49,478 nucleotides of DNA. Source: Candidatus Parcubacteria bacterium. GTDB lineage: Bacteria; Patescibacteriota; Minisyncoccia; Sungbacterales; SURF-37. A program made the translations under genes and the position numbers. Of the stretch, positions 8,116 through 27,624 are shown piece by piece (position 1 is the first letter of the stretch; every line of letters starts with the position of its first letter). The notes under the pieces were generated by a model. That model saw only the letters and a list, made by a program, of their open reading frames with translations, had not been told where the DNA came from and made no database searches. Where the stretch lies: positions 214,362 through 263,839 of the forward strand of contig QZJO01000009.1 of assembly GCA_003599755.1 (NCBI GenBank). Reading direction: 5' to 3'.

Positions 8116-8185
8116 TATATCGCCTCTGTCGAGTTTGAAAGACGGCAAGCGATATTCTATAGTAGCTAAGCTGCGAAATTGATAT

Positions 8186-8256
8186 TCCGGGATCGTCTAG
8201 TGGTAGGACGCCGCGCTCTGGACGCGGAAACTGGGGTTCGAGTCCCTGTCCCGGAG
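8186..8256 (+). tRNA. tRNA-Gln(CTG)
   Basis: Acceptor TCCGGGA/TCCCGGA, D-arm GTC/GAC with TAGTGGTA loop, anticodon stem CCGCG/CGCGG with loop CTCTGGA (anticodon CTG), T-loop TTCGAGT, discriminator G as expected for Gln. CCA is not encoded. Its 3' part is the attachment site of mobile element 1, and it overlaps the antisense 3' end of the recombinase gene by about 60 bases. Confidence 0.93.
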
Positions 8257-9906
8257 GAGAAGGCGTGATTTCGGGTCAGAATCCCGGAATCGTGCCTTAG
8301 CAAGAGGGTTTCTGGAGGTTCGAATTTTCTTTCGAGGCTCCTGTGACTCCATGATAGATTTATCGGGCGCTGTTACAGCAACGCCAGACAGGACGCCCTT
8401 TTCGGGGGTGTTTTGTGTTGGTTCGAATTTTTCGGCATCCAGCTTCTCTTGTACGCGCCTCGCAAGGCGTTCTACTGGCTCCGAGAGAGTATACGCAACC
8501 TTCTTATCCTTCAGCATCAAGGCGGAAAAGATGTAGCCAAGCAGGAGTCGCCGTTCGTCTGGTGTGCGTTTTTCATAGATTTCCCTAGCCCGGCGGGCTA
8601 AATCGATTACATCGAGCCAAAGTTCAAAATAGCGTGACTCCTCGGATTTGAGACGAGTCATCTGCTCACGGATTTGCTCTTGCTCATTATTAATTTCACC
8701 TTCTTTCCGTTTCCATACCTCATTCGAGACGCCATCATCTAGTCGAATTTCGAAAAGGCGGTCGAGTCTCTTCTGCAAACTTTCGTATCGAGCAGAGAGT
8801 GCGCGTAAAGCATTTTCCTTGTATTCAATCTCCTCTGCGTGGTCAGCCTTGATGCCGTTTCGTATAGCGTCTGCCTCCGCTGGCGTGATTGCTTCGAAGA
8901 GTTCGAATACCCCCTTAATTTGACCCTCGATTTCTTCCTCACGCACAAATGCCGTCTGCTTACATCCGCGATAATGATTGCAGTGGTAGTAAACGTGGCC
9001 TTTTTGAATTTCACCTGTGATAGTTCCACCACATTCGCTACAAGTCAAAGTTTTCTTGAAAGCAAAAATATGTTTTCGGTACTTGGGGCCTCCTCCGCGG
9101 ACAAGACGTTGTTGAACAACATCAAAAAGCTCCTTCGTGATAAGTGCCGTATGCTTGCCATTTGGATGAACTTCACCATTCCAGCGCATAGCCCCATAGT
9201 AAAAAACTTCTTTCAGCAACCTTTCGATTGCACTCTTTACTACCATCCTTCCAGAGCGGGCGCGAAAACCTTCAGTGTATAATTTTTCCGTCAAAGATTT
9301 CAGCGAATAATTCCCCGAGGCATATAACTCAAAAGCCATCCTCACAAACGGTGCGCGCTCATCGTCTATGATGTGTTCTTTATGACCCCTGTCGCCCGTG
9401 GTTTTATAACCAATTGGCGGCTCTGCGGGCAACCATCCCTGTTCTAGTTTTTCACGATGACCCTTTCTCACCTCTTCAGATAGGTTTGTAATCTGTTTCT
9501 TTGCCAAAACAATCTCGATGTCCCAACGAAACTTTTCGTCGGAGGTAGCATTTCGATGTATAACCAAATTCTGTTTCACAAAATGAACTTGGCGTTCTGG
9601 AGCAATTTCTATCCAATCATTCACTACGACCGCTTCTTTCATATTACGCGTGAGTCGGTCAACTTTTTCGCAAAGCAAATTTTGGATTTGGTAGTCTTCA
9701 ATATACTCCATCATCGCAGAGAAAACTTGGCGTTGCTTTCTTCCGCTAGCAGATTCTGATATTGAGAAGATATTCGCAACTTTGAATCCTTTTCGTGCGG
9801 CATAATCTTTGAGTAATCTTTCTTGCGCTGGAAGCGAATAACCAGTTTCCTCTTGCTCGCGCGAGGAGACGCGACAGTAGAGAACTGCGCCGTTGTTTTT
9901 ATTCAT
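8197..9906 (-). CDS. large serine recombinase (integrase of element 1)
   Basis: The 569-residue protein starts MNKNNGAVLYCRVSSREQE; the catalytic serine lies in RVSS. The resolvase domain (EKVDRLTRN) is followed by the recombinase domain (PPIGYKTTGDRG), the zinc ribbon (CSECGGTITG ... YYHCNHYRGC) near residues 285-315, and a long coiled coil (residues ~355-430). It integrates and excises the element at tRNA-Gln. The last ~20 residues (RDRDSNPSFRVQSAASYH) are translated from the antisense strand of the tRNA itself, so the host target supplies the stop codon. After excision the tail would differ. Confidence 0.95.
   Translation of the reverse strand: MNKNNGAVLYCRVSSREQEETGYSLPAQERLLKDYAARKGFKVANIFSISESASGRKQRQVFSAMMEYIEDYQIQNLLCEKVDRLTRNMKEAVVVNDWIEIAPERQVHFVKQNLVIHRNATSDEKFRWDIEIVLAKKQITNLSEEVRKGHREKLEQGWLPAEPPIGYKTTGDRGHKEHIIDDERAPFVRMAFELYASGNYSLKSLTEKLYTEGFRARSGRMVVKSAIERLLKEVFYYGAMRWNGEVHPNGKHTALITKELFDVVQQRLVRGGGPKYRKHIFAFKKTLTCSECGGTITGEIQKGHVYYHCNHYRGCKQTAFVREEEIEGQIKGVFELFEAITPAEADAIRNGIKADHAEEIEYKENALRALSARYESLQKRLDRLFEIRLDDGVSNEVWKRKEGEINNEQEQIREQMTRLKSEESRYFELWLDVIDLARRAREIYEKRTPDERRLLLGYIFSALMLKDKKVAYTLSEPVERLARRVQEKLDAEKFEPTQNTPEKGVLSGVAVTAPDKSIMESQEPRKKIRTSRNPLAKARFRDSDPKSRLLLRDRDSNPSFRVQSAASYH
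8240..8256 (+). repeat. attL core of element 1
   Basis: GAGTCCCTGTCCCGGAG, the 3' end of tRNA-Gln. It is identical to 16169-16185. Confidence 0.85.
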
Positions 9907-10315: not shown

Positions 10316-10351
10316 AGATATTTTTATGAATAACAAAAAGGGACAGCCGAC

Positions 10352-10480
10352 CTGCAACCCACATCTTGGAAGCGGTGAAGCCCTCAATTGTGGAGGTACG
10401 ACTGCCCCTTGCTGCCCGCAATTGGGCAAAGAAGCTAGTCGCTTCACCGCTGAATAAATAAAATAAGATGTGGGTTGCAG
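10352..10480 (-). ncRNA. large multi-stem structured element, unknown class
   Basis: A perfect 16-bp outer stem (CTGCAACCCACATCTT/AAGATGTGGGTTGCAG) encloses a perfect 11-bp stem (AGCGGTGAAGC/GCTTCACCGCT). Inside are two smaller hairpins, CCTC/GAGG and GACT/AGTC with TGCCC/GGGCA. Both inner loops contain the self-complementary CAATTG, which could kiss. On the minus strand a T-rich tail (CCCTTTTTG) follows. It lies in the 5' leader of the membrane-protein gene. It may act as RNA or as a DNA cruciform; no known family was recognised. Confidence 0.5.
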
Positions 10481-10634
10481 ATAAATTATAGCATAACTAC
10501 AAGCATTTTGAAGGGGTGACACTTTGGATTGCGATTGCCTTTTCGCAACATTCTCCAAACTCTTATATCCATACATCTGGGATGTATGTACTAACTCCGA
10601 GGTCCTATTACACGCTTTATCTCTTAGAAGAAGA

Positions 10635-11156
10635 TTATTCTTCATAGGGAGTCTTATTAGTGGTTGATTCTGACATTATCGGCGATGTAGATTCGGCACT
10701 ATCTAGCGACTCGCTCTGAACGGACACCAGAAACATAAACTCGTCGTACTGCCGCTGAGTTATTTTGCCCGTCTGGAGCAGTGCCAATTTTTCACTATCA
10801 ATAATGGCCTCCAATTTGCGCCACAAGCCATCGAGGTCGTAAACATAGGTGTGATATGGACGACCCGCTAAACGGCGAACAGAGAGGTACCCTAGGCGCT
10901 TCAGGTGTTCTTTAGAACGAAAGATGGTCCGTCGAGTTATCCCACTCTCTCGGCTCATCCGCTTAATACTTGGAAAAATTTCACCGTTTTGTCTTTTATA
11001 CGAAAGCAGATGTGAAAGAAAAACAAAATCTGACGAGCGTAATCCCAATGCTTTCGTGTTCCTCAAAAGGGCATTAGGAATCATCGTAAAACCGCTATGA
11101 GAAATCCGGTAACGGTACAATTTTCCAAATTTTTCCTCACTCGGATTTTTGTTCAT
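10635..11156 (-). CDS. helix-turn-helix protein (HTH_36-like) of element 1
   Basis: The product has about 173 residues and starts MNKNPSEEKFGKLYRYRI, overlapping the end of the small upstream ORF. The core SGFTMIPNALLRN ... LGLRSSDFVFLSHLLSYKRQNGEIFPSIKRMSRESGITRRTIFRSKEHLKRLGYL is a winged helix of the kind found in plasmid replication initiators and phage regulators. The tail is Ser/Thr-rich and probably disordered. An analogous HTH gene precedes the recombinase in element 2. Its role could be regulation of the integrase or replication of the excised circle. Confidence 0.8.
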   Translation of the reverse strand: MNKNPSEEKFGKLYRYRISHSGFTMIPNALLRNTKALGLRSSDFVFLSHLLSYKRQNGEIFPSIKRMSRESGITRRTIFRSKEHLKRLGYLSVRRLAGRPYHTYVYDLDGLWRKLEAIIDSEKLALLQTGKITQRQYDEFMFLVSVQSESLDSAESTSPIMSESTTNKTPYEE

Positions 11157-11286
11157 TCCCCATTTTCTGATTCCGATTGTCCTCAGAATCAAAACGCGCT
11201 AAGAGGTCGAAAAATCCGACAAGAGCTTCGACAATACGCTTGTCTGCAAGTGGAGTTTCTTCTTTTTTCGTTTCGTCTCGAGGCAT
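11137..11286 (-). CDS. small ORF heading the element 1 integrase operon (49 aa)
   Basis: This ORF is too short for the track. It reads MPRDETKKEETPLADKRIVEALVGFFDLL and ends QKMGNEQKSE. It is charged with a predicted amphipathic helix. Its end overlaps the HTH gene start by about 20 bases. A comparable small ORF (SDAEAQQIFEALSQLADLVL ... SNEQKKK) occupies the same place in element 2. The paired position supports reality; the sequence similarity is weak. Confidence 0.55.
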   Translation of the reverse strand: MPRDETKKEETPLADKRIVEALVGFFDLLARFDSEDNRNQKMGNEQKSE

Positions 11287-11291
11287 AAAAA

Positions 11292-11360
11292 TCCGCTAAT
11301 CGCTGGACGGGTTCAATGGGGAAGCGGACCCGTCAAGCGATTAACGGACACCCCCATTGA
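11292..11360 (-). promoter_or_regulatory. pseudoknot-like leader before the element 1 operon
   Basis: Arm a (11292-11312, tccgcTAATCGCTGGACGGGT) pairs with a' (11328-11348) over 21 bp with two mismatches. Nine bases of its loop (TCAATGGGG, 11313-11321) pair perfectly with 11352-11360 (CCCCATTGA), giving an a-b-a'-b' topology. On the minus strand the long stem is followed by ATTTTT and then the ATG of the small ORF. It could act as attenuator, translation control or DNA origin. The same topology occurs in element 2. Confidence 0.6.
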
Positions 11361-11372
11361 TTTACCGCACGC

Positions 11373-11400
11373 GAAAAAACCGCAGTCTCACGACTGTGGT
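11373..11400 (-). terminator. intrinsic terminator
   Basis: On the minus strand ACCACAGTC-GTGA-GACTGCGGT (9 bp, one wobble) is followed by TTTTTT. It stops leftward transcription before the pseudoknot leader. Confidence 0.75.
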
Positions 11401-11407
11401 GCTAAGC

Positions 11408-11457
11408 AAAATGGCTGCCACGCACCCCACACTCGTGAGATAAGTGGCAGCCATTTT
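11408..11457. repeat. 14-bp inverted repeat
   Basis: AAAATGGCTGCCAC and GTGGCAGCCATTTT, 22 nt apart, perfect. It may be a second, bidirectional terminator hairpin. Confidence 0.6.
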
Positions 11458-11767
11458 CCTGCCGTTCGCCCCCGTCAAAGGGTAGCGACTCAAAGGAGGT
11501 TCCCATCCTCCGGTAACACGCACTCTAACTTGGAGAGTAGCGTTCTCTGAATCAGTAATCCCTCCCACGGAGGAGATTGCTTTTGAACCGAATCGGATTC
11601 AGAGTAGGTGACTAAATTTTATTCCTCTAAAATGCTCTGTCAAGCACAATCCGATTTCGTCGAATTTCAGATTTTTATGCCACCGTTGCTTCACCGCGAG
11701 CGAAGCATTTTTTAACTTTTGGCGTATTTGCTTACATTTTGAAAATCGCCATACCACCAAGAATTTT
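11458..11767. other. 310-nt gap with no convincing gene
   Basis: Short ORFs here (for example 11362-11568 minus) lack an SD and run through hairpins. The sequence contains repeated ggagg/cctcc blocks (11490-11575) that could fold. A non-coding RNA transcribed leftward into the terminator at 11373 is possible, but I see no proof. Confidence 0.4.
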
Positions 11768-16028: not shown

Positions 16029-16046
16029 ACAGGGACTCGAACCCGG
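16029..16046 (-). repeat. inverted copy of the tRNA-Gln attachment core
   Basis: On the minus strand it reads CCGGGTTCGAGTCCCTGT, matching the tRNA-Gln T-arm and acceptor region (ggGGTTCGAGTCCCTGT). It is probably a remnant of another insertion end. Confidence 0.6.
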
Positions 16047-16168
16047 GAAAGGGGTCGGGGAAACGGTAGTTTTCCCGCGGTGGAAGTATTGAAACCGCAA
16101 GGTTTCAAGGAGCGGTGTTAGCGCACGCAGGTGCGCGTGCCGCGACGGGTTCTAGGCGCGTAGCGCCG

Positions 16169-16185
16169 GAGTCCCTGTCCCGGAG
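16169..16185 (+). repeat. attR core of element 1
   Basis: GAGTCCCTGTCCCGGAG, an exact 17-nt copy of the tRNA-Gln 3' end at 8240-8256. Confidence 0.85.
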
Positions 16186-16193
16186 TTGCAGAA

Positions 16194-16223
16194 ACAAAAT
16201 GCCCCTTGCGGGCATTTTTTGTT
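16194..16223 (+). terminator. probable original terminator of tRNA-Gln, displaced by the insertion
   Basis: AACAAAATGCCC-cttgc-GGGCATTTTTTGTT lies 9 nt after the attR core, where the tRNA terminator would sit in the empty site. Confidence 0.75.
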
Positions 16224-16501
16224 TTCTGTGGAATCTTTGAAACAGGGGCGAGAAGGGAATGCCAGTCGGCATTCCCAGGGCTTTTGCGAGGGGCAAAAGG
16301 AGTCCCTGTCTTCCTTCAGGAATTGCGGCGACGGTTCTAGGCGCGCAGCGCGGGAGTCCCTGTCCCGAAGATTTTGGTTTGACTCTGGGACAGGGACTCG
16401 ATCTGTCTGAAACCACCTATATCGTATAACGGTAATAATTTATTGATATACAATATAACTTCCGCTAAGCTGTAAACATTAGTATCAAGGACGCAATTTC
16501 T

Positions 16502-27425: not shown

Positions 27426-27543
27426 TGGATTTTGGCAAGCTTCCCAAGACCAAATCAGCAAGCTGTGACAGGGCTTCGAATATCTGCTGTGCTTCGGCGT
27501 CAGAAAGATCGCCGGTTAGATTTTTGAGTTCGTCGAGGGTCAA
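27376..27543 (-). CDS. small ORF heading the element 2 integrase operon (55 aa)
   Basis: Not in the track because of its TTG start and size. It reads (M)TLDELKNLTGDLSDAEAQQIFEALSQLADLVLGSLPKSNEQKKK. GGGGGA lies about six bases before TTG. It is acidic and helical, and matches the element 1 small ORF in position and general character. A pseudoknot-like structure ends 7 nt upstream of its start. Confidence 0.5.
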   Translation of the reverse strand: MTLDELKNLTGDLSDAEAQQIFEALSQLADLVLGSLPKSNEQKKKTIETGISTDR

Positions 27544-27550
27544 ATTAAAT

Positions 27551-27624
27551 CCCCCTATTTCGAAGGCAGGCTTCTGATGCCGGATGGCACCTGCCCTCGA
27601 AATAAGGGGTAGTCGGCATCAGAA
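27551..27624 (-). promoter_or_regulatory. pseudoknot-like leader before the element 2 operon
   Basis: Arm a (27551-27570, CCCCCTATTTCGAAGGCAGG) pairs with a' (27590-27609) over 20 bp with two mismatches. The loop segment TTCTGATGCCG (27572-27582) pairs perfectly with CGGCATCAGAA (27614-27624). A second copy of GATGCCGGAT at 27638-27647 could compete for the same strand, giving a switch. The topology is the same as at 11292-11360, with unrelated sequence. Confidence 0.6.

Follow-up and report, generated by a model that had tools for sequence, protein, structure and literature searches.

What does a knotted structure do directly in front of the integrase operon of a mobile element from a Candidatus Parcubacteria bacterium, and is it kept there by selection? 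The window (the whole stretch of DNA that was analysed, 49,478 nucleotides) is part of a 0.93-Mb genome, and its element 1 carries on the minus strand a large serine recombinase (8197-9906), the 3' end of which overlaps tRNA-Gln (8185-8257). Going upstream from the recombinase on this strand come a short membrane-type protein, a winged-helix protein resembling DnaD and replication initiators (10635-11156, minus strand; domain matches HTH_36 and DnaD_N) and an ORF of 49 amino acids (11137-11286, minus strand), which the knotted leader abuts. The small ORF belongs to a family of 45-67 aa that is near universal in Patescibacteria serine-integrase elements, with 106 matches in 131 upstream regions; neither it nor its relatives gave a convincing match in Pfam or PHROG, or any known domain, and the family could be an excision factor. 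The tRNA-Gln 3' end recurs in five partial copies, in both orientations, at 16029-16401, together with a 38-bp direct repeat (16148-16185 and 16333-16370); this is probably the right attachment region, and its tRNA-Gln copies exceed what a single insertion needs.

The initial annotation had described the leader as an H-type pseudoknot in which a 21-bp stem with two mismatches has nine loop bases paired to its flank, and which ends on the minus strand in TTTTT before the ATG of a tiny ORF. The pairing and the position were confirmed. The stem arms (11292-11312 and 11328-11348) have 21 nt each, with 19 Watson-Crick pairs and a 15-nt loop, and one of the two mismatches is a G.U wobble when read on the minus strand. 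Within the loop, 11313-11321 (TCAATGGGG on the plus strand) is perfectly complementary to 11352-11360. Read in the direction of the operon, all on the minus strand, the order is therefore S1a (11352-11360, the 5' arm TCAATGGGG, which contains an ATG), S2a (11328-11348, the 5' arm of the terminator-like stem), S1b (11313-11321, the loop bases CCCCATTGA that pair with S1a), S2b (11292-11312, the 3' arm of the stem) and the U-run TTTTT (11287-11291), which directly abuts the ATG of the 49-codon ORF (11286-11137). The folding z-score of this minus-strand RNA is -5.0, and none of 200 shuffles was equally stable. About 255 nt upstream of S1a, a predicted promoter, TTGACA-16-TAAAAT (11616-11643, minus strand), matches the consensus at 11 of 12 positions, a score reached by none of 200 shuffles.

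When all 49.5 kb were scanned for hairpins whose loop pairs with a flank on either side, three matches were obtained: the element 1 leader, a region at 11386-11457, and a counterpart in element 2, which is organised like element 1 and adjoins tRNA-Met. In this counterpart, also on the minus strand, S1a (TTCTGATGCCG, 27614-27624) forms 11 bp with the loop bases S1b (CGGCATCAGAA, 27572-27582), S2a and S2b occupy 27590-27609 and 27551-27570, and the small ORF starts with TTG at 27543. The layout is thus that of element 1, while the sequence is different.

Relatives of these leaders (hereafter W1 for element 1, W2 for element 2 and L-numbers for related elements) were sought through their genes and their layout. 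Blastn with W1 and W2 among the loci gave no convincing relatives, and the small ORFs vary too much for their alignment to serve in a scan of viral contigs. Since the winged-helix protein alone as query found no relatives in the viral contigs or in the family, integrases were used as bait against GTDB genomes and viral contigs, yielding the 131 upstream regions of the main count. Most of the related elements belong to named Patescibacteria. A layout search recovered both arms on the coding strand in 13 further serine-integrase elements, making 15 in total (W1, W2, L034, L140, L080, L117, L135, L137, L144, L159, L160, L161, L168, L081 and L133), although these members were selected by requiring both arms, so that the features described below are partly those of the search, and the loci are partly non-independent. 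The reverse strand is no valid null for this search, because a knot passes the mirrored test when read from the other strand.

The structure is facultative and sporadic. About 10 of the 106 small ORFs are preceded by it, the other members preceding another leading gene. Small ORFs with another gene close upstream, or with only a plain hairpin in this place, lack it. Homologous operons lacking an arm had been named in advance as evidence against a selected structure. This applies in part: most of the 106 small ORFs stand in operons without the structure, but no case that lacked a single arm was seen in a search that required both.

Where leaders resemble one another, they do so in pieces. W1, L034 and L140 have ATGGGG/CCCCAT in S1 in common; W2, L161 and L168 share GGGCAGG/CCTGCC at the tip of S2, and their S1 differs throughout. 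L080 and L117, which are alignable and have the 5' arm TGACGTCATCRGGYAAAAGC in common, differ in S1 by compensating changes (GCGGTGA/TCACCGC in L080 versus CCCATGACG/CGTCATGGG in L117).

Geometry speaks against a literal, fully formed H-type pseudoknot. Classical H-type pseudoknots have coexisting helices and linkers that span the grooves. Across the members S2 measures 12-26 bp and S1 6-11 bp, while in nearly all of them the linker L1, which would have to cross S2, has 0-9 nt and the linker L3, which would have to cross S1, has 0-3 nt, both being longer in only one member, L081; in W1, 3 nt would have to span 21 bp and 0 nt would have to span 9 bp. The argument is one of geometry, drawn from general groove-crossing distances rather than from a three-dimensional model. 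With linkers of this length the two helices cannot form in full together, so that S1 and complete S2 are mutually exclusive, and we regard them as mutually limiting helices; it is possible that the upper part of S2 forms alongside S1.

Is the loop-flank pairing more than chance? Among the 163-167 hairpins upstream of the integrases (net score of 11 pairs or more, 14-nt 5' flank), 13 have a loop that pairs over at least 8 nt with the 5' flank, against 0.15 expected when loops and flanks are shuffled; ten of the 13 belong to this class, one to a second leader type, and two are other or AT-rich. Pairing of the same length with the 3' flank occurs once, and pairing with the 5' flank was found in none of 73 hairpins downstream of the integrases and in none of 105 hairpins at 76 unrelated viral integrase loci. 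The mismatches within S2 point to the level at which selection acts: on the coding strand those of the transition type are 18 G.U and 0 A.C (p = 8e-6), with a detection that scores both alike, and therefore selection is on the coding-strand RNA and not on the DNA. These results support a layout beyond chance and under selection. The existence of both helices, their strand and position, and the conservation of pairing without conservation of sequence thus come from sequence and statistics, and the original suggestion that pairing kept without sequence kept marks a selected structure is upheld by the 13 cases against 0.15 and by 15 elements with differing sequences.

S2 looks like an intrinsic terminator placed at a start codon. 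Its energies range from -14 to -35 kcal/mol, the 12 nt around the end of S2b hold 5.6 T versus 3.5, and several stems show the A-tract / GC / U-tract form of a terminator (for example AAAACCGCCAA..TTGGCGGTTTT in L137); some members have only short U-tracts (3 U in W2, L034 and L144). An intrinsic-terminator attenuator combines a stable stem and a U-rich tract ahead of an operon, which the leaders have, with actual termination and regulated read-through. A simple terminator scan did not list the W1 stem, whose loop has 15 nt versus the 8 nt allowed. In 12 of 14 members a start codon (of an ORF of at least 40 aa) lies at -4 to +9 of the S2b end, compared with 13% at random, and in L034, L140, L137 and L080 it lies within the stem. 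When RNAs are folded up to the end of S1b, S1 forms in 13 of 14 members, a count that is partly circular given that S1 was a selection criterion; in the full RNA, S2 folds and S1 is lost in all 14. Complete S2 is more stable than S1 by about 1-22 kcal/mol, so that S2 always wins at equilibrium, and any effect of S1 would have to be kinetic or rely on assistance. A strong predicted promoter lies upstream in W1, L135 (12/12) and L159, and the promoters of most other members are no better than chance.

We consider it somewhat more likely than not that the leader is a cis-acting RNA in which S1 gates the S2 terminator, and thereby controls the operon of the small ORF and the winged-helix protein upstream of the serine integrase. 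Transcription of the leader would run along the minus strand, probably starting at the promoter at 11616-11643, in the order S1a, S2a, S1b, S2b. S2 would be an intrinsic-terminator-like hairpin abutting the start codon, and S1 would join the terminator loop to the bases immediately 5' of the stem. Since both S1 arms precede S2b in transcription, S1 has the chance to fold earlier and enclose S2a in its loop. As long as S1 held, the lower half of S2, by the U-tract and the start codon, could not zip and polymerase would read through; if S1 opened or never formed, complete S2 would form and transcription would end. S1 could coexist with the upper part of S2 only, which makes it a candidate antiterminator without any bases in common with the terminator. 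On read-through messages complete S2 would also cover the start codon, so that control of translation by hiding it can act together with termination. Termination at S2, the polarity of the on and off states and any signal are what we infer here. The two competing folds suggest an on/off switch, so far undescribed, by which the element would control its own genes.

Several other explanations have to be weighed against a gated terminator. The initial annotation had offered an attenuator, a translational switch or a replication/nicking structure; as a leader of the small-ORF operon, either of the first two is plausible, while nicking fits poorly with the 18:0 ratio of G.U to A.C. The main rival is control of translation through a hidden start codon, in which complete S2 would bury the small-ORF start and the ribosome landing site, S1 would restrict S2 to its upper half and free the start, and termination would be minor. 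Start codons inside S2 or at most 9 nt from S2b in those 12 of 14 members, several of them in the stem, and the weak U-tracts of some members agree with it; however, there is no Shine-Dalgarno sequence in or near S2b, and the U-tract enrichment and the A-tract/U-tract stems suit a terminator better, which leaves this reading unlikely, yet one to be taken seriously. Tandem terminator-like hairpins precede the operon in many elements, and elements that lack S1 have plain hairpins adjoining the start codon, as would be expected if S2 were a constitutive insulator, a strong terminator excluding outside transcription from the integrase operon, with S1 only shaping or stabilising it. But S1 is strongly selected (the 13 versus 0.15) and topologically opposes S2, and in element 1 a strong promoter lies upstream of both hairpins, which places them inside its own leader; we think an insulator improbable.

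A leader peptide would work differently, translation of a short uORF from S1a opening S1 and masking S2a. An ATG or GTG is found in S1a of W1, W2, L034, L140, L117, L080 and L137, in W1 and L034 the uORF ends precisely where S1b does, and a frame reading MTSSGKS from such a start is common to L117 and L080 with synonymous differences, which hints at translation in that subgroup; against this, no Shine-Dalgarno sequence precedes the S1a starts, and L135, L144, L159, L161 and L168 have no such start. We think control by a leader peptide very improbable. The replication-initiator-like gene in the operon and the nested palindromes could also bring to mind a DNA-level element, with nested inverted repeats acting as a site for recombinase, replication or nicking. 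Such a structure should show no strand preference in its mismatches, whereas the coding strand has 18 G.U and no A.C; the partner of the loop lies almost always on the 5' side of that strand, and attachment-site-like copies are found at the end with tRNA-Gln and around 16 kb rather than at the leader. We give a DNA-level element hardly any credence.

Attenuation by alternative RNA helices is already known, and it is the layout and the host group that are new within the literature and families searched. In pseudoknot riboswitches that contain a terminator, such as the preQ1-I class, loop-flank pairing competes with the terminator, as it is proposed to do here; in contrast to these, the element leaders have no conserved ligand-binding core, and their S1 and S2 share no bases, the competition being topological. 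In plasmid rep attenuators such as those of pT181 and pIP501, alternative RNA helices likewise determine whether transcription stops before a replication gene, but they are driven by antisense RNA and have arms common to both helices, unlike S1 and S2. Closest in logic is the HMP-PP (thiS motif) riboswitch, a terminator with an alternative fold that opens the stem base: its sensing structure is embedded in an intrinsic terminator, and the alternative fold, possibly a pseudoknot, leaves the tip of the stem intact and disrupts its base by the U-run (PMC6478431). However, the aptamer loop of HMP-PP riboswitches is conserved and their genes are those for thiamin, whereas here loops and S1 are unconserved, the genes are those of a mobile element (small ORF, winged-helix protein, serine integrase) and no ligand is suggested. 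No Rfam 15 family, HMP-PP included, scored above its gathering threshold for the leader or the related loci, in keeping with the earlier remark that no described family with this layout is known. By sequence, ligand genes and Rfam score, then, the leader does not belong to the HMP-PP riboswitches. Terminators also control mobile-element gene expression in Tn916, where a terminator near an element end is reported to insulate, as opposed to a loop-gated terminator in an operon leader (PMC11658703).

Almost nothing is known about the control of integration and excision in Patescibacteria mobile elements, and a leader switch would give the integrase operons of this large bacterial group a concrete, testable point of control; being defined by layout rather than sequence, it would escape alignment-based RNA discovery.

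Element 1 carries two further loop-flank leaders, which counts in favour of a gated terminator. The third match of the scan belongs to a knotted structure at 11374-11457 (minus strand) that shares the leader with S1 and S2. Its helix 1 has the arms AAAATGGCTGCCAC (11444-11457) and GTGGCAGCCATTTT (11408-11421), and the 5' arm of its helix 2, TCTCACGAGTGTGG (11427-11440), is a candidate antiterminator arm; 11386-11399 doubles as the 3' arm of helix 2 and the 5' part of a predicted terminator, T1 (CCACAGTC-GTGA-GACTGCGG-TTTTTT, 11374-11399). As predicted from sequence, this is a classical antiterminator/terminator overlap.

Before the membrane-type gene and the integrase lies a further leader RNA, which we call class B (10338-10478, minus strand). 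It comprises P1 (10465-10478 / 10354-10367), P2 (10442-10451 / 10371-10380) and P3 (10399-10410 / 10338-10349), a helix between loop and 3' flank that is followed by a U-run; its long hairpin begins adjoining the -10 box of a predicted promoter with an extended -10 (TTCAAA-16-TATAAT, 10485-10512). The arrangement recurs directly upstream of the integrase in about 20 related elements, many with a AAGGGGCGGT-type sequence in the loop helix. Class B gave no match to Rfam 15 in the loci searched and is a candidate new RNA family; MAFFT misaligns its outer helix. Its predicted helices repeat the principle of S1 and S2, two that are mutually exclusive and of which the second is terminator-like. Somewhat short of an even chance, in our estimate, is the wider reading that serine-integrase elements of Patescibacteria share an undescribed leader class, with a terminator gated topologically by a loop-flank helix, fast-evolving sequence and conserved layout, several copies per element (small-ORF operon, integrase operon) and perhaps one trans-acting factor. 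Some related elements also carry LOOT RNA (RF03000), on the strand opposite to the integrase (L080:5329-5444, L087:4026-4147, L092:5577-5696, L135:4934-5059 and L137:1694-1812).
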